Part shown: positions 52,211 through 59,703 of the stretch, piece by piece | Layout: each line of letters starts with the position of its first letter | Numbering within the stretch: position 1 is the first letter of the stretch | NCBI RefSeq assembly: GCF_014192715.1 | Contig: NZ_JACHYH010000002.1 | Coordinates: 124,001-188,000, forward strand | Direction of reading: 5' to 3' | DNA length: 64,000 nucleotides | Origin: Luteibacter sp. Sphag1AF | GTDB lineage: Bacteria > Pseudomonadota > Gammaproteobacteria > Xanthomonadales > Rhodanobacteraceae | The notes under the pieces: generated by a model | The model's input: only the letters and a program-made list of their open reading frames with translations | Databases searched by the model: none | What the model was told of the DNA's origin: nothing | Program-made: the position numbers and the translations under genes

Positions 52211-53743
52211 TCAGGCCTCCGGGCGCATGTAGGGGAACAGCAGCACGTCACGGATGGACGAGGCGCCGGTCAGCAACATCACCAGACGATCCATACCGAT
52301 GCCCAGACCGCCCGTGGGCGGCAGGCCCACTTCCAGCGCGCGGATGTAATCGGCGTCGAAGTGCATGGCCTCATCGTCACCGGCGTCCTTCGCGTCCACC
52401 TGAGCCTGGAAACGTGCGGCCTGGTCTTCGGAGTCGTTCAACTCCGAGAAGCCGTTGGCAATTTCCTTGCCGTTGATGAACAGCTCGAAGCGGTCGGTGA
52501 TGCCCTTGTTGGTGTCGCTTTCGCGCGCCAGCGGCGAGACTTCCACCGGATGGTCGGTAATGAAGGTGGGCTGCACCAGCGTGTGCTCGACGGTGGCCTC
52601 GAAGATTTCGAGAAGGATCTTGCCCCAGCCAAAACCGGGCTTCACGTGAATGCCAAGACGCTTCGCGTGCGCGGCCATCTTCTCGCGATCGCGCAGGTCC
52701 GATGCCTGAATCCCGGGATTGAGTTCAAGCACCGCATCTTCCATGCGCCAGCGGCGGAACGCCGGAGCCACGTCGATGCTGGCACCGTCCCACTCAAGCG
52801 TGGTCTTGCGGACCACATCCTGCGCCAGGGCACGGATCAGGCCTTCGGTGATATCCATGATGTCGTGATACGTGGCGTACGCCTGGTACAACTCAAGCAT
52901 GGTGAACTCGGGATTGTGCCGGGTGGACACGCCCTCGTTGCGGAAATTGCGGTTGATTTCGTACACACGGTCGAAGCCGCCCACCACCAGGCGCTTGAGG
53001 TAAAGCTCCGGCGCCACACGCAGGTACAACGCCATGTCCAGCGCGTTGTGGTGAGTGACGAACGGGCGCGCCGTAGCGCCGCCGGGGATGACGTGCATCA
53101 TCGGCGTTTCCACTTCCATGAAGCGACGCGGCGATTCTTCCAGCCAGCGACGCGTATGGCCGATGATCTGCGAACGCAGCGCGAAGGTGCGGCGCGCTTC
53201 CTCGGTCACGATGAGGTCAACGTAGCGCTGGCGATAGCGCTGCTCCACGTCGGCCAGACCGTGATGCTTGTCGGGCAGCGGACGCAGCGACTTGGTGAGC
53301 AGGCGCAGGCTGTCTACCTTGATCGAAAGCTCGCCGGTCTTGGTGCGCATCAGCACACCGGTGGCACCGATGATGTCGCCAAGGTCCCAACGCTTGAAGG
53401 TGTTGTAAGTCTCTTCACCCAGCGTGCCCTGATGGACGAAAAGCTGGATGCGGCCGGTACCGTCCTGCATCTGCACGAAGCTGACCTTGCCCTGCCCGCG
53501 CATCAGGATGATGCGGCCGGCTACGGCGACGCGACGCGGTGTGGCCTCGATGGCCTCGGCGGTGAAGGTTTCCGCATCCTCGAACTCTTTCTGCAGGTCG
53601 CCCGCGAAGCTGTCGACCCGGAAATCGTTAGGGTACGCGATGCCCGACTGGCGCAGCGCCTTGAGCTTTTCGCGGCGTTCGGCAATCAGCTTGTTCTCGT
53701 CGGCGACCGGCGCGGTCGGCGTCTGGGTAGCGTTGTCAGTCAT
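52211..53743 (-). CDS. lysS: Lysyl-tRNA synthetase, class II
   Basis: 510 residues. N-terminal OB-fold anticodon-binding domain ([32 protein letters not shown]), then the class II catalytic core: motif 1 near [20 protein letters not shown], motif 2 [20 protein letters not shown], and motif 3 [15 protein letters not shown] near the C-terminus. It lies downstream of prfB, the prfB-lysS order also found in E. coli. Confidence 0.97.
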
Positions 53744-53839
53744 GGGAAGCTCTTCGCGTTGAATGGAGGGGATGGGGTTCTGCCGGTAAAACGTGCGAGG
53801 GACGCGTGGGCAGGGATGCCTTCCGTGGCACCCCTTTTA

Positions 53840-54965
53840 TTACGCGTCCAGACGTTTGGAACCCGCTTCCAGGCCGGACTTCAGGCTGGCTTCCACGAAG
53901 CCGTCGAGGTCGCCGTCGAGCACCTTCTGGGTGTCGGTGCGCTCGATGCCGGTGCGCAGATCCTTGATGCGCGACTGGTCGAGCACGTAGTTGCGAATCT
54001 GGCTGCCCCAGCCGATATCCGACTTGGTGGCTTCCAGCGCATCCTTTTCGGCGTTGCGCTTCTGCACTTCCAGCTCGTACAACTTCGCCTTCAGCATCTT
54101 CATGGCGCGGTCGCGGTTGGCGTGCTGGCTGCGCTCGGTCTGGCAGGCCACCACCGTGTTGGTAGGCACGTGGGTGATACGTACCGCCGACTCGGTTTTA
54201 TTGACGTGCTGACCACCGGCACCCGACGAGCGGTACACGTCGGTTTTCAGATCGGCCGGATTGATGTCGATTTCGATGTCGTCATCCACTTCCGGCGACA
54301 CGAACACCGAGGTGAAGCTGGTGTGGCGGCGGTTGTCCGAATCGAACGGGCTCTTGCGCACCAGACGGTGCACGCCGATTTCCGTTTTCAGCCAGCCGTA
54401 GGCGTAGTCGCCTTCCACGCGGAACGTGGCGGACTTGATGCCCGCCACTTCGCCCGCGCTGACTTCCATCATCTCGACCTTCCAGCCTCGCGACTCGGCC
54501 CAGCGCAAGTACATGCGCAGAAGCATTTCGGCCCAGTCCTGGGCTTCGGTGCCGCCCGCGCCAGCCTGCACATCGACGAATGCCGAGGCCGAATCCAGCT
54601 CGCCGGAGAACATGCGCTGGAATTCCAGCTTGCTGACCTGCGCGTCTACCTTGCTGAGGTCCTCGAGGATGGCGTTGATCGTGTCCTCGTCGCCATCGCT
54701 GGCGGCCATGTCGAGCAGGTCTTTCGCGTCGTCCAGGCTGGCCGACATGGTGTCGATGCCGATGACGATCTGTTCAAGACGGGCGCGCTCGCGACCCAGT
54801 TCCTGGGCGCGGGTGGGGTTGTCCCACACGGTGGGGCTTTCCAGCTCGCGACTTACTTCTTCCAGCCGTTCTTTCTTGACAGCGTGGTCAAAGATACCCC
54901 CTAAGCGACTCGACCCGGCCCCGAAGGTCCGAAATCTGCGCAAGGATCGGATTGATCTCGATCAT
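53840..54965 (-). CDS. prfB: Peptide chain release factor 2, with programmed +1 frameshift
   Basis: RF2, which recognises UGA and UAA. The start is the ATG at 54965 ([20 protein letters not shown]). Frame 0 runs 25 codons to an in-frame TGA at 54888-54890, then the ribosome shifts +1 and continues [14 protein letters not shown]-type sequence to 53840, 374 residues in total. The second frame is open upstream of the shift site, so a naive start there is wrong. Motifs: codon-recognition SPF ([12 protein letters not shown]) and peptidyl-hydrolysis GGQ ([18 protein letters not shown]). Confidence 0.96.
54885..54902 (-). promoter_or_regulatory. RF2 autoregulatory frameshift site
   Basis: Minus strand AGGGGG-TAT-CTT-TGA-C: an internal Shine-Dalgarno-like AGGGGG three bases before the slippery CTT and the UGA followed by C. 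This is the classical RF2 site, where scarce RF2 favours the +1 shift. Confidence 0.95.
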
Positions 54966-55055
54966 TGTGTTTACCCGAAGTGTGCGGCGCGGGAGGCGCC
55001 TGCAAAGACCAGGAATCTTAGCAAAACCCCTCCCTTGCCGCATCGCCGCATGGCG

Positions 55056-56726
55056 TCAGCCAGCCAGCGCCTCCCGGTGTACGCCCCGGACGGCACGTCC
55101 GGAAGGGTCGGCGGCGGTGGCGAAGGCCGGATCCCAGGCCAGCGCTGCCGGAGATGAGCAGGCAATGGACTTCCCGCCCGGCACCGTGGCCGCACAGGCT
55201 TCACCCGGGAAATGCCTCTCAAAGAGCGCGCGGTACAGGTAGGCCTCCTTGCTGGCCGGGGTGTTGTGCGGGAAGCGGCTGGCGGCGGCGGCGAACTCAC
55301 GGTCGCTGACGGTTGCCTCCGCATGCGCTTTCAGGCCGTCGATCCAGCCGTAGCCCACGCCATCGCTGAACTGCTCTTTTTGCCGCCAGAGGATTTCGTC
55401 CGGCAGCAGGCCCTCGAAAGCCTCGCGCAGAATGCCCTTCTCGATACCCTTGCGGCTGACCATCTTCGCCTGCGCGTCGAACGACATCGCCACGTCGAGG
55501 AACACGGTGTCGAGGAACGGCACCCGCGCTTCCACGCCCCAGGCGGCCATCGACTTGTTGGCACGGAGACAGTCGTAGTTGTGCAGGGCGTCCAGCTTGC
55601 GCACCGTTTCTTCGTGGAAGGCGCGCGCCGAGGGCGCCTTGTGGAAATACAGGTAACCGCCAAACACTTCGTCGGACCCTTCGCCCGACAGCACCATTTT
55701 CACGCCCATGGCCTTGATCCGGCGCGCCAGCAGGAACATCGGCGTGGAGGCTCTGATCGTGGTGACGTCGTAAGTTTCGATGTGCCGGATCACTTCGGGC
55801 AACGCGTCCAGTCCTTCCTCGAAGGTGTACCGGAACCCGTGATGCACGGTGCCCAGGGCCTCGGCAGCTACGGCAGCGGCGGCCAGATCAGGCGAGCCTT
55901 CCAGACCGATGGCGAAGGAATGCAGGCGAGGCCACCACGCTTCGCCCCGATCATCTTCCTCGATGCGTCGACGCGCGAACCGTGCTGCGATGGCGGCCAC
56001 CAGCGAGGAATCCAGGCCACCGGACAGAAGCACGCCATACGGCACGTCGGTCATCATCTGGCGATGCACGGCGGCTTCAAACGCTGCGCGAAGTTGCGCC
56101 GGTTCGATCTGCTGCCCGGCCGTGGCATCGTATTCGCGCCACGGACGCTGCCAGTAGCGCACAAGTTCACCCTGCGCGCTGTCGTAGTAATGGCCGGGCG
56201 GAAACGCCGAGGCGTCGGCGCACACGCCCACCAGCGCCTTCAGTTCCGAGGCCACGCAAAGGCGCCCTGCCCGGTCGTGACCCCAGTACAACGGCACGAC
56301 GCCCATCGGATCACGCGCGATGAGGAAGCGACGCTTCGCGCTGTCCCACAGGGCGAAGGCAAACATGCCGTTCAACTGGTCCAGAAAGTCCACACCGTGT
56401 TCGCGATACAGCGCGTTGATGACTTCGCAGTCAGACGCTGTCGTGAACGGATAGGCGCTGTCACGACGCAGTTCGCGATGGTTGTAGATCTCGCCGTTTA
56501 CTGCCAGCGCCAGTTCGCCATCGGGCGAGCGCAATGGCTGGGCGCCACTGGCGGGATCAACGATGGCCAGGCGCTCGTGTACAAGGATGGCGCCATCGTC
56601 CACATACACGCCGCTCCAGTCCGGACCACGGTGCCGCTGCCGCTGCGACAGCTCCATGGCCTGCACGCGAAGGGCCGCCAGATCGTCATCGGCATGAAGA
56701 TGGAACATTCCAAAAATCGAACACAT
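55056..56726 (-). CDS. asnB: Asparagine synthase B (glutamine-hydrolysing)
   Basis: 556 residues, the length of E. coli AsnB. The N-terminal class II glutaminase has the nucleophile Cys2 (MCSIFGMFHLHADDDLAALR), RGPDWSG and VNGEIYNHREL. The C-terminal synthetase has the ATP-pyrophosphatase loop LLSGGLDSSLVAAIAARF near 240 and GEGSDEVFGGYLYFHKAPSA near 345. It makes asparagine from aspartate, glutamine and ATP. It is preceded by an Asn-rich leader ORF and a terminator/antiterminator (56759-56942). This predicts transcription attenuation by charged tRNA-Asn. It stands as a single gene with 90 bases before prfB. Confidence 0.97.
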   Translation of the reverse strand: MCSIFGMFHLHADDDLAALRVQAMELSQRQRHRGPDWSGVYVDDGAILVHERLAIVDPASGAQPLRSPDGELALAVNGEIYNHRELRRDSAYPFTTASDCEVINALYREHGVDFLDQLNGMFAFALWDSAKRRFLIARDPMGVVPLYWGHDRAGRLCVASELKALVGVCADASAFPPGHYYDSAQGELVRYWQRPWREYDATAGQQIEPAQLRAAFEAAVHRQMMTDVPYGVLLSGGLDSSLVAAIAARFARRRIEEDDRGEAWWPRLHSFAIGLEGSPDLAAAAVAAEALGTVHHGFRYTFEEGLDALPEVIRHIETYDVTTIRASTPMFLLARRIKAMGVKMVLSGEGSDEVFGGYLYFHKAPSARAFHEETVRKLDALHNYDCLRANKSMAAWGVEARVPFLDTVFLDVAMSFDAQAKMVSRKGIEKGILREAFEGLLPDEILWRQKEQFSDGVGYGWIDGLKAHAEATVSDREFAAAASRFPHNTPASKEAYLYRALFERHFPGEACAATVPGGKSIACSSPAALAWDPAFATAADPSGRAVRGVHREALAG

Positions 56727-56758
56727 GACACGGGGCTCCTGGTTATCGGACGTCAGAA

Positions 56759-56796
56759 ACGCAAAAGGCCCGCCTTGGAGGGCGGGCCTTTTGCGT
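56759..56796 (-). terminator. asnB attenuator: terminator hairpin
   Basis: Perfect 16-bp inverted repeat ACGCAAAAGGCCCGCC / GGCGGGCCTTTTGCGT with a six-base loop, 33 bases upstream of the asnB start and 23 bases after the leader stop. In minus-strand RNA the GC-rich core (GGCCCGCC/GGCGGGCC) is followed by UUUUGCGUUUC, a usable intrinsic terminator. No gene ends immediately upstream on this strand, so its position inside the asnB leader indicates attenuation. It could also act on the plus strand by symmetry. Confidence 0.85.
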
Positions 56797-56836
56797 AGGT
56801 TTGGTGGATGTCTATCCGCCTAAACGCCGGCCCTCC
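56777..56836 (-). promoter_or_regulatory. asnB attenuator: antiterminator pairing
   Basis: The minus-strand segment GGAGGGCCGGCGTT (56836-56823, the last codons of the leader ORF) is complementary to AAGGCCCGCCCTCC (56790-56777, terminator 5' arm plus loop) at 12 of 14 positions, including seven contiguous pairs. Forming it destroys the terminator. Upstream, two AACGCC stretches within the Asn codons (56859-56864 and 56868-56873) can pair with GGCGTT of the same segment, giving the protector stem. A ribosome stalled on the Asn codons would block the protector and free the antiterminator. Confidence 0.75.
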
Positions 56837-56942
56837 CGATGTTCCGGGCATTATTATTGGCGTTATTGGCGTTCACGCGCGGCATCGCATTCGCGGGAAG
56901 CGAATGGTTGGCACATACGGCAAAGTGAGCGCGGGACATCAT
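56820..56942 (-). CDS. asn leader peptide (attenuator, Asn-rich)
   Basis: 40 codons from ATG 56942 (MMSRAHFAVCANHSLPANAM, then PRVNANNANNNARNIGRAGV) to TAG at 56820. Nine Asn codons in total, seven within eleven codons (56841-56873: AAC GCC AAT AAC GCC AAT AAT AAT GCC CGG AAC). An internal ATG gives a 21-residue version (MPRVNANNANNNARNIGRAG plus V), the usual leader-peptide size. No Shine-Dalgarno precedes either start. A weak promoter (TTGCGC at 56973-56978, TCTATT at 56949-56954, 18-base spacer) would put the transcript start at the first ATG, making it leaderless. The role is inferred from position before asnB and the overlapping terminator/antiterminator. Confidence 0.8.
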   Translation of the reverse strand: MMSRAHFAVCANHSLPANAMPRVNANNANNNARNIGRAGV

Positions 56943-57067
56943 GGATCGAATAGATCACGAACGATGTCCTGCGCGCAATAGGCACAGTGCAGGAAATTGT
57001 GAAATGCCACCGGCCACGGCAGGCCGTCATGGCGTAGGGTCCGGTGCCTGCAAATGGAGCTTGCAAC

Positions 57068-57610
57068 GTGCACAGCGAAAAACGGGCCATACCATTACGA
57101 CGCAGCCAGTCGATCACCGACTACCTGTCCCGGCCGTCCGGACAACGACGGCTGGTCATCGGTTGCGGGCGCACGCCCGAACACGTGCACATGGGTTCGG
57201 TGGAGGGCATGCCCTGCTCGCTGGGCCAGACGCACGAGCACGACTTCACGGTGGACGTGAACCCGGACGCATCGCCGGATATCACGATGGATATCATGCT
57301 CTGGCGCAGCTCCCCTCTTTTCACGCTGGGTACGGGACAGTTCGATCAGGTGACGTTTGAGTATCTTCAGCGAGGACCCAGGCGCCCGTTCAGTGCGACC
57401 CACATCGACCTGTGGATCGACGCAGCCCATGCGCTGCTGGCACCGGGTGGCCTGCTGCGGTTTTATTCCGGGCTGCCCGCCTATCTGAATGCGGCCACGC
57501 AGGCCATGAACAGGCACGGCTATCGCGTGCAACGCGGGACTATTCCGCCCCAGGGTGTGCCGCATAACCGGCATGGGCACCAGTGGTGTGAAGGCGCGCG
57601 CCCGCGCTGA
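57068..57610 (+). CDS. SAM-dependent methyltransferase-like protein
   Basis: 180 residues from a GTG at 57068 (GGAG eight bases upstream); an earlier in-frame GTG at 57044 lacks an SD. The sequence RRLVIGCGRTPEHVHMG resembles a class I methyltransferase glycine loop. TVDVNPDASPDITMDIM resembles the acidic second motif, and DLWIDAAHALLAPGGLLRFY a LxPGGxL strand. It may therefore bind SAM, but catalytic specificity is unknown. It is divergent from the asnB leader and converges with the tssM-like gene, ending five bases from its stop. Cargo or modifier of the adjacent type VI cluster is possible but unproven. Confidence 0.6.
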   Translation: MHSEKRAIPLRRSQSITDYLSRPSGQRRLVIGCGRTPEHVHMGSVEGMPCSLGQTHEHDFTVDVNPDASPDITMDIMLWRSSPLFTLGTGQFDQVTFEYLQRGPRRPFSATHIDLWIDAAHALLAPGGLLRFYSGLPAYLNAATQAMNRHGYRVQRGTIPPQGVPHNRHGHQWCEGARPR

Positions 57611-57615
57611 AGCAC

Positions 57616-59703
57616 TCACGTGCCCGCGCTCGACGTTGCCGGAGGCGGGGCCTCTCCACGCTTTCGCATCATGGCCCGCGCGGCGGGAAGCACATCGTCA
57701 AACAGATGGCTGAACACGCCAGGCCCCTGTGCGACCGTGGCGGCCAGACGATCCACCGCGCCGGGATCGTAGCCCGCCGGGGTAATCGCATCAGGCGCGG
57801 CGGCGACCACGTCCAGTTGCAGGGCCAGTGCCGCGAGATCGGCCCGCAATACACGGCCCCACGCATGCGGTGCCGGACCATCCGCCGAGCGCATGGCGCG
57901 AAAGCGCCACGCCAGCGGATCGTCGTCGTTCACTCCGGAGGTTTCCACGGCCACCCCATGAATCAGGCTGGCCAACGGCGAATCCTCACCAGCGAGCAGG
58001 TTGAGACGCCGCGCCAGCGCGGAAGGTGACGTCGCGTTGACCACGCGCAAATCCGATAACGCGGCCTGCCAGACGGCAATGTTCTCGCGGTGATGCAGGT
58101 CCAGTACCGCCTCGCGGGTTGTCTCCAGCGGCAATCGCGCCCCCATGACCCACGCTTCGTCTTCAAGCGCCTGCTGGGTCGCAGTGGACACGCGGGCCAC
58201 GAATTCGCGATGACCACTTGCCGAAGCCCAGAGCGGCAGCACCGCGTGCAGGGACACGCCGCTGCGCCTGCGAAGCAGCCCTGCGGCGGCGCCACGTGTC
58301 ATGGAAGCGATGGATATCGTCCTCCCCCGCGCAGGCATGATCTCCGTGACGGCGCGGCGGTAGATGCGTTCCACGGGCGAGGTCCGGCCCAGTTGCGCGC
58401 GCGCAGCCGTCACCAGTTGCATGTCCACACGGCTGTCCGGTGGATGGGTGAATCCTTCCAGATGCCTGTGCGCAGCCGCCTCGGTCAGCCACGGCGACAA
58501 CGCGGTCATGTCTGGCCCGGCGGCGTGCAGGGCGAGATAGGCACGCAGGGCGGCATGCAGACGATCCGGTGCTTGTGTCGCTGGCGAACTCAGCACGGCG
58601 TGGATGCGCCCGGCGACCGCAGGCAGCAGGCGCCCCGCGATCGCATCGTGGTATCGCTCCGCTGCCGTGCCGCGCAAATCACTCACGCGCGCATCCTGCG
58701 CATCGGTGTCGGTGTCGGTGGATGCCAGTGCCCGCAATGCGTCGAGGTGGCGCCACGGGCCCTTGTCGGCATCCGCAAGCGTGGCTTCGGCGGACACCAC
58801 CCGACCGGTCATGCTGTCAAGCGCGCGACTGCCCTGATGGAAACGCACGCAGCCAAAGGCCAGACCCGCCACACCGATCAACACCAGGCTTCCCGCGATG
58901 AGTCGTCTTCGCCACATGCGGCTCACGCGACGGCGCAGACCGCGCGCGGCGTCCAGTGCATCATTCAACGACAACGCAGGTCGCGCGGCAACGTCGAAGT
59001 GAATGCTCGCAGGCCATAGCCGTCGCGCCCTGCCCTCGCCCGGAAACATCTGCGTGATGCTGGCGGCAAGCACCTGCGCCATGGCGCTCCACGTACGCGG
59101 GAAGCGATAGATGTCCCCACACGCTGTCACGTCGGGTGCGCGGTGAAGGCGTGACACCGGGCAGACCACGTCTGCACAGGAGCGTTCCTGCAACACGGTG
59201 GCGAGAGCGTGCATGGAAGCCGGAGCAACCGCGACATGGCCAGCAGCGGCGACTCCTGTCGCCATCCAGCGCGTGTAGCCGGGAATGTCATCACACCCGG
59301 TCACCAGCACCCGTACCTGAGGACGGCGACCAGCGACATCGACGATATCCCCCAACAGCTCCCGCCAGTGCAGCGCTGCCGCAGCACGTGTGGCCGGCGC
59401 GGCAGCGCGCAGGAAGCCCGCGTGCACAACAACCATCACCAGACACGGACGGCGACGTCCCCGCAGCGCGTCGACTACGGCTTCCCAGAGCGTGGTTTCT
59501 TCACTCTGGCAAACGTTTCTTGCAACCGTCAGCAGCGCATGACCGTTGACGCGTGACACACGCACGTCCTCCCGCAGCGGCTCCGTGACATCCCCCTCTC
59601 CGAGCAGCAGCGCACCGGGCCAGTGACGAAGCTGCGCGCACCAGCTGCGCACGGTTTCCCGAATGGCGTGTCGACGCGCGTCCAGTTCGCTGGTGGCCGT
59701 CAT
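57616..59703 (-). CDS. Short TssM/IcmF-like type VI secretion protein
   Basis: 695 residues, against about 1100-1200 for usual TssM. The N-terminal two membrane helices are missing. The NTPase-like region is degenerate: WPGALLLGEGDVTEPL stands where the Walker A GxxxxGKT should be, though VRVLVTGCDDIPGYTRWM resembles the later TssM strand-TKxD segment. One membrane helix follows (LIAGSLVLIGVAGLAFGCVR, about 268-287), then a periplasmic IcmF-related part. It overlaps the tssL stop by ATGA, in the position expected of TssM. Either a reduced functional TssM or an unrecognised relative; I favour the former from synteny. Confidence 0.7.
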   Translation of the reverse strand: MTATSELDARRHAIRETVRSWCAQLRHWPGALLLGEGDVTEPLREDVRVSRVNGHALLTVARNVCQSEETTLWEAVVDALRGRRRPCLVMVVVHAGFLRAAAPATRAAAALHWRELLGDIVDVAGRRPQVRVLVTGCDDIPGYTRWMATGVAAAGHVAVAPASMHALATVLQERSCADVVCPVSRLHRAPDVTACGDIYRFPRTWSAMAQVLAASITQMFPGEGRARRLWPASIHFDVAARPALSLNDALDAARGLRRRVSRMWRRRLIAGSLVLIGVAGLAFGCVRFHQGSRALDSMTGRVVSAEATLADADKGPWRHLDALRALASTDTDTDAQDARVSDLRGTAAERYHDAIAGRLLPAVAGRIHAVLSSPATQAPDRLHAALRAYLALHAAGPDMTALSPWLTEAAAHRHLEGFTHPPDSRVDMQLVTAARAQLGRTSPVERIYRRAVTEIMPARGRTISIASMTRGAAAGLLRRRSGVSLHAVLPLWASASGHREFVARVSTATQQALEDEAWVMGARLPLETTREAVLDLHHRENIAVWQAALSDLRVVNATSPSALARRLNLLAGEDSPLASLIHGVAVETSGVNDDDPLAWRFRAMRSADGPAPHAWGRVLRADLAALALQLDVVAAAPDAITPAGYDPGAVDRLAATVAQGPGVFSHLFDDVLPAARAMMRKRGEAPPPATSSAGT

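Follow-up and report, generated by a model that had tools for sequence, protein, structure and literature searches.

A predicted asparagine-specific, ribosome-mediated transcription attenuator upstream of asnB in Luteibacter and other Xanthomonadales

The window analysed here is a stretch of 64,000 nucleotides from Luteibacter sp. Sphag1AF (RefSeq assembly GCF_014192715.1, contig NZ_JACHYH010000002.1, positions 124,001 to 188,000), and positions given below are counted from its first letter. On the minus strand lies asnB (55056..56726, -), which an initial annotation made from the letters alone had read as an asparagine synthase gene and which matches NCBIfam NF006949.0, a glutamine-hydrolysing asparagine synthase B, with 859.1 bits (cut-off 499). 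It is the sole match of an AsnB search of the organism's own genome at E ≤ 0.001. The gene stands in tandem with prfB and lysS (asnB-prfB-lysS, 52226-56726, -), the last of which is recognised by NF001756.1 (685 bits). The next gene downstream, prfB (53840-55043, -), has a short ORF ahead of its main reading frame and in a different one, with the change of frame at ctttgac, which we take to be the usual layout of the programmed frameshift of RF2. prfB is present in 34 of 77 relatives' loci (one being an asnB fragment) and was not found in the examined Xanthomonas, Stenotrophomonas, and Lysobacter loci, whose flanks extend to at most 2.5 kb. Read-through could reach the translation genes prfB and lysS. 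On the other side of asnB, a TssM-like protein is encoded at 57616-59703 (-), with a score of 112.8 bits that is below the cut-off of 388, and may belong to a run of type VI secretion genes. Between this gene and the asnB leader lies a 188-codon ORF (57044-57610, +) with no NCBIfam match.

The leader of asnB contains a short ORF of 40 codons (56820..56942, -), which starts at the ATG at 56942, ends with the stop codon TAG at 56822-56820, and has the predicted translation MMSRAHFAVCANHSLPANAMPRVNANNANNNARNIGRAGV. Nine of its codons specify Asn, at residues 12, 18, 24, 26, 27, 29, 30, 31, and 34, and seven of them fall within the eleven codons 24-34. This dense run is referred to as region 1 (56841..56873, -). 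A perfect, GC-rich 16-bp stem begins 23 nt past the stop codon, in which region 3 (56796-56781) pairs with region 4 (56774-56759) around the 6-nt loop CTCCAA (56775..56780), all on the minus strand. These features had been described in the initial annotation, and direct reading confirms the nine Asn codons, their clustering, and the spacing of the stop codon from the hairpin. The hairpin also lies just before the asnB start, as claimed, although the distance from the stem to the asnB ATG is 32 nt rather than 33. The U-rich tail that had been ascribed to it exists as a T-run, but TTTCTG follows the stem, which makes for a short U-tract that lies partly inside the stem, and a simple terminator scan gave no flag. 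The hairpin is almost symmetric (AAAAGGCCCGCC...GGCGGGCCTTTT). Folding of the 234-nt region gave -86 kcal/mol, compared to -71.7 kcal/mol (sd 4.7) for 200 dinucleotide shuffles, none of which was as low (z -3.0).

Region 2 (56822..56838, -) lies within the leader ORF and its stop codon, and forms the 5' strand of a putative antiterminator whose 3' strand is region 3 (56781..56796) together with the first loop bases. The 3' end of the ORF had been proposed to be complementary to the terminator 5' arm and loop; the segment GGAGGGCCGGCGTT (56836-56823) indeed pairs with them in a computed duplex of -23.6 kcal/mol, and the first four loop bases complete the window's region 2/3 pair, GGAGGGC/GCCCTCC. 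The two copies of AACGCC in region 1 (56873-56868 and 56864-56859), likewise noted initially, can pair with GGCGTT at -15.1 kcal/mol, which makes region 1 a possible protector strand. Across the relatives described below, this protector 1:2 pairing averages -22.7 kcal/mol versus -19.4 for shuffled sequences, a modest gain. Alternative-structure folding with a modelled ribosome, whose footprint was assumed to extend 12 nt past the A-site codon, separates the two competing pairings. As long as region 4 has yet to be made, a ribosome placed at any of the Asn codons from 12 to 31 leaves regions 2 and 3 paired (-26.5 to -38.6 kcal/mol for the whole fold), and one placed at Asn 34 abolishes this pairing (-12.0). 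The terminator alone forms when the ribosome is placed at the stop codon (-32.6). At equilibrium with region 4 present, the terminator outcompetes the antiterminator in the folded window RNA, and the switch must therefore be kinetic and decided during transcription, as is the case for other attenuators.

Upstream regions of asnB were collected from named genomes (80 loci kept from 584 candidates) and from a family draw of 197 genomes, of which 150 have asnB at E ≤ 1e-150. From 229 loci, 26 were skipped because of low identity or a missing start, and the 203 that were placed gave 193 distinct loci after ten duplicates were merged. A further 24 with less than 70% AsnB identity over the aligned part were set aside, and 169 were analysed; the identity values for L111-L229 are based on about 67 residues. 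Leaders were found by a stop-to-stop scan, and a scan demanding an ORF start had missed many. A non-redundant choice comprised 125 leaders, of which 38 of Rhodanobacteraceae type were aligned (alignment A1) and used to make a covariance model. The rest of the order was represented by 47 asnB upstream regions, to which one from the class was added; some of these come from the same strains as named loci.

The Asn run is strongly conserved ahead of asnB. At least five Asn in eleven codons occur within 350 nt in 138 of the 169 orthologues and in 7 of 3380 dinucleotide shuffles, with corresponding counts of 154/169 and 70/3380 for at least four Asn, and of 164/169 and 760/3380 for at least three. 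On the antisense strand, none of the 169 upstream regions has five or more, and certain relatives' leaders reach just three Asn per eleven codons. When up to 700 nt upstream are considered, a run of at least three Asn, a stop codon, and a hairpin 16-36 nt (median 24) past the stop are found together in 165 of 169 loci from Rhodanobacteraceae, Xanthomonadaceae, and their kin. A hairpin of at least 8 bp with a T-rich tail lies in that interval in 161 of the 165, compared to 18 of 825 first-order Markov controls. In certain relatives the hairpin is up to 384 nt from asnB, far enough for a second promoter to fit in between. Among named genera, the leader is present in Rhodanobacter, Fulvimonas, Dyella, Frateuria, Stenotrophomonas, Pseudoxanthomonas, Xanthomonas, Lysobacter, Luteimonas, Thermomonas, and Arenimonas. 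The conservation of Asn run, leader stop, and terminator across the two families supports the attenuator interpretation of the initial annotation. A hairpin kept where the Asn run is lost, which that annotation had named as counter-evidence, is not clearly seen in any of the 169 loci: 165 have both, and the four lacking the run show no terminator of comparable quality. In these four (L013, L025, L037, and L204), no Asn run was found, and their top hairpin scores range from 24.5 to 38, with no more than three T in six positions, whereas the leaders average 48 (sd 3.7). L204 proves little because it is a contig end of 250 nt, with an 11-bp hairpin lacking a T-tail. The other three, with AsnB 74-79% identical to that of the window, are possibly contaminating or misbinned contigs, judging from their record titles (Rhodococcus sp. 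RD6.2, Holophagales, and Deltaproteobacteria, respectively).

Over the rest of the order, leader and hairpin were found in 17 of the 48 regions (L230-L246), comprising 14 of 15 from family f2 and all three from f159; two of them (L245 and L246) have AsnB identities of 64-66% over the first residues and 75% over the whole protein. One region (L254) comes from a further family, f164, and contains a candidate asnB leader, either independent in origin or an outlier. Its ORF has four Asn codons among eight and is followed 21 nt past the stop by a terminator with a hairpin score of 48; there are also a GCGCGGGT/GCCCGC pairing of -14.0 kcal/mol and a promoter-like TTGACA-GATAGT that would give a longer 5' end, that is, a 5' UTR and not a leaderless start. 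No Asn leader was found in the other 30 regions (L247-L277 apart from L254), in which AsnB is 61-71% identical over the whole protein. A class-wide search of 276 genomes returned a single asnB match at E ≤ 1e-150 outside the order (L277), where the Asn run is not above 3/11. Among the loci below 70% identity, L211-L227 show at most three Asn in eleven codons. Three others (L039, L040, and L042) reach four in AT-rich DNA and were rejected, their best hairpins being weak (22.5-27 against the leader mean of 48).

At E ≤ 3.8e-7, 131 of the 197 family genomes had a match to the covariance model, one in each, and all 131 lay within 800 nt of asnB. Of the 19 asnB genomes lacking such a match, 17 have a divergent AsnB, one (G086) has a weaker match adjoining asnB (E 2.6e-5), and one (G165) has asnB at a contig end. 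Four places inspected as possible leaders of other genes (E 1.8e-6 to 5.1e-5, taken from the weaker matches listed and not the four best) have no Asn ORF and were rejected. Upstream of asnS in the organism's own genome, there are at most two Asn in eleven codons.

The variation within the Asn codons points to constraint on the amino acid. In the Asn-majority codon columns of four groups of aligned leader ends, 94 cells hold the minor synonymous Asn codon and 41 hold a non-Asn codon, figures that indicate a direction without a p-value, since the choice of columns with 70% Asn or more depresses the non-Asn count and the cells lack independence; a group of two rows (RAGD) was left out as too small. 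Only one in nine single-base changes of an Asn codon is synonymous, so this ratio indicates that Asn itself is being kept. No third-position excess was seen in the peptide outside the Asn codons, where 13, 12, and 12 variable columns were counted at positions 1, 2, and 3 in one genus (2 of 17 rows being out of register by one codon). The C-terminal residues are kept within groups (GRAGV, RWRARA, and RPMRDC) and differ between them, while the Asn codons are common to all groups. AAT makes up 540 of 1165 Asn codons (46.4%) in the 169 leaders versus 73 of 584 (12.5%) in the asnB genes of the loci checked, a difference that may reflect slow decoding, avoidance of structure, or neither.

Compensatory changes, which had been suggested as a check, are clear in the terminator and partly so in the antiterminator. 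In the 38-leader alignment, the terminator is paired in 94.4% of cells with a sharp loss on sliding, and 5 of its 13 pairs show two-sided change (34 cells compared to 12.3 shuffled). The antiterminator is 95.7% paired in the same Rhodanobacteraceae-type alignment but shows no two-sided change there. Should region 4 constrain region 3, this absence would be expected, yet it is no proof. Over all 165 leaders, regions 2 and 3 pair at a mean of -19.9 kcal/mol versus -12.4 with shuffled region 2, and permuted partners reach -18.27 (sd 0.19), with none of 2000 permutations as good as the true partners (kinship uncorrected). This advantage is carried by the contrast between families: pairing averages -22.9 within the 16 Xanthomonas-type leaders and -19.2 within the first 60 of the 137 Rhodanobacter-type leaders, compared to -15.5 and -13.1 for crosses between the types. 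With kinship likewise uncorrected, own partners are better than swapped ones within the 16 Xanthomonas-type leaders (p 0.0015) and not clearly better within the 137 Rhodanobacter-type leaders (p 0.12), and the loop bases, which the terminator leaves unpaired, bind region 2 better than swapped loops do (p 0.002, 159 leaders). By computed pairing, the antiterminator partner segments change in step between families, as in the region 2/3 pairs GGCGGGCC/GGCCCGCC, GGCCGATGCGGG/CCCGCATCGGCC, GCAGGCC/GGCCTGC (L032 and L056), and GGTCGATGCGGG/CCCGCATCGACC (L016).

The position of a putative promoter was not part of the initial annotation. In the window, a predicted -35 element TTGCGC (56973..56978, -) is followed after 18 nt by a predicted -10 element TCTATT (56949..56954, -), which ends 6 nt 5' of the leader ATG; a strict promoter scan gave no flag here, and the assignment draws on the relatives, in which TTGC also appears in the column profile. 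A sigma-70-like -10 element ends 6 or 7 nt 5' of the leader ATG in 153 of the 169 distinct leaders, a count biased by the choice of the ATG according to promoter score. Among leaders with a single possible ATG, the proportion is 91 of 97, compared to 334 of 1258 antisense ATGs. A TTG-type -35 element at 16-18 nt spacing is present in 156/169 leaders, most commonly with a 17-nt spacer (111). The base directly 5' of the ATG is C in 160/169 leaders, and a Shine-Dalgarno core was found in 9/169. From the location of the -10 element, the leader mRNA is predicted to be leaderless, with the RNA starting at or within a base of the AUG.

A second point beyond the initial annotation concerns the source of Asn-tRNA. 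AsnRS scores above its cut-off in all 24 genomes sampled over the order, and GatA does so in 26 of the 197 family genomes, namely in none of the 150 asnB-positive genomes (which include those with a divergent AsnB and no leader) and in 26 of the 47 asnB-negative ones. At the thresholds used, 21 family genomes have neither asnB nor GatA, and one genus (g5) includes both states. As GatA does not exceed its cut-off in the asnB genomes, their Asn-tRNA should derive from free asparagine via AsnRS and so probably reports the level of free asparagine.

Collectively, the data are best explained by a ribosome-mediated transcription attenuator specific for asparagine, to which we assign a probability of about 0.9, with stalling and read-through as predictions from sequence and modelled folding. 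In this mechanism, the RNA would start at the leader AUG or no more than one base away, and the Asn-rich ORF would be translated by a ribosome on the nascent RNA. When Asn-tRNA is ample, the ribosome would reach the stop codon in region 2 and cover that region, allowing regions 3 and 4 to pair and terminate transcription ahead of asnB. When Asn-tRNA is scarce, it would stall on the Asn run and leave region 2 free to pair with region 3 before region 4 is made, so that the terminator is blocked and asnB transcribed. Untranslated RNA may adopt the protector 1:2 pairing. We also lean towards a fuller account, in which the attenuator is kept in at least three families of one order, its leaderless mRNA is translated from the first base, AAU is enriched as a hungry-codon bait, and the system persists in the absence of GatCAB so that Asn-tRNA reports free asparagine.

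The conserved hairpin could in principle be an ordinary insulating terminator that shields asnB from upstream transcription, with a chance ORF and meaningless Asn codons in front of it. The near-symmetric stem, which could terminate on either strand, would suit this role, and the missing terminator-scan flag has also been counted in its favour. It is nevertheless highly improbable in view of the Asn density (138/169 against 7/3380 shuffles), the synonymous variation at Asn codons (94 against 41), the fixed spacing from stop codon to hairpin, and the promoter placed immediately before the leader ATG. A direct RNA sensor ahead of asnB, that is, a T-box or riboswitch, deserves similarly little credence. 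T-boxes do control asn genes in Firmicutes, but at E values up to 1, window positions 56000-57500 gave seven Rfam matches, none of them a T-box or riboswitch, ten relatives gave no Rfam match at gathering score and none to a T-box, and what is conserved is a reading frame with two simple helices.

Nascent-peptide arrest, in which the leader peptide, while in the ribosome tunnel, would itself respond to free asparagine or a different small molecule and not to uncharged tRNA-Asn, is somewhat less remote and still quite unlikely. A leader ORF overlapping the antiterminator would suit an arrest peptide equally, and C-terminal residues are conserved within groups. However, the groups share Asn codons and not one peptide, and their differing C-termini coincide with region 2, so pairing explains their conservation; modelled stalls at Asn codons also free region 2. 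An attenuator working as proposed whose terminated leader RNA or peptide has a further role in trans, like the one reported for Sinorhizobium trpL, is an unlikely addition. The predicted leaderless small mRNA does resemble rnTrpL, the Sinorhizobium meliloti attenuator RNA that starts at the trpL ATG, a start stated from earlier work in PMC7298713. Against this stand the poor conservation of the asnB leader peptide outside its Asn codons and the lack of a known target.

Textbooks describe ribosome-mediated attenuation for a small number of amino acids, represented in Proteobacteria by the trp, his, leu, ilv, thr, and phe leaders. The asnB leader shares with these operon attenuators a short ORF rich in codons for the end product, a terminator, an overlapping antiterminator, and a stop codon in region 2, and differs in its Asn codons, its target asnB, and its predicted leaderless start. 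The window contains sub-threshold Rfam matches to Thr_leader (RF00506, 31 bits, gathering 55, E 0.0018) and Leu_leader (RF00512, 21 bits, gathering 50), which we take to reflect this layout; a similar Thr_leader score of 29 bits occurs on the opposite strand. Pfam and NCBIfam gave no match for any of six leader peptides. The T-box control of Firmicutes responds to the same signal, tRNA-Asn charging, at the same type of gene, whereas there the RNA binds tRNA directly and no leader peptide is involved. The trpL system of S. meliloti (rnTrpL/peTrpL), as presented in PMC7298713, offers a parallel for a leaderless leader mRNA, which is only predicted for asnB, and differs in being a tryptophan system of Alphaproteobacteria. 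In Rhodobacterales, attenuation has been proposed from comparative genomics for a Cys-codon uORF (uORFC-8-2) upstream of cysS, according to PMC8632094; it likewise represents a lineage-restricted amino-acid specificity of the same mechanism, but for cysteine and with an aminoacyl-tRNA synthetase gene as its target. The initial annotation knew of no described ribosome-mediated attenuator for asparagine synthase, and none appeared among the open-access titles and opening abstract lines listed, subscription literature lying outside this scope. The terms 'asparagin' and 'asnB' are absent from the main text of two survey papers on attenuators and RNA motifs (PMC2965389 and PMC8632094). Within the parts of the open-access literature so covered, an asparagine specificity of ribosome-mediated attenuation is apparently undescribed.

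An asparagine version ahead of asnB, in eleven named genera including Xanthomonas and Stenotrophomonas, lengthens the list of amino acids served by attenuators and offers an answer to how this order controls asparagine synthesis. The predicted leaderless start would make it a clean case for the coupling of initiation at a bare AUG to transcription in an attenuator. Many Rhodanobacteraceae could, if the mechanism holds, tie asnB to the downstream translation genes prfB and lysS. The proposed attenuator also suggests that tRNA charging can gauge asparagine in cells that have AsnRS and lack the GatCAB bypass, in which case the charging of tRNA-Asn would be the cell's asparagine gauge.
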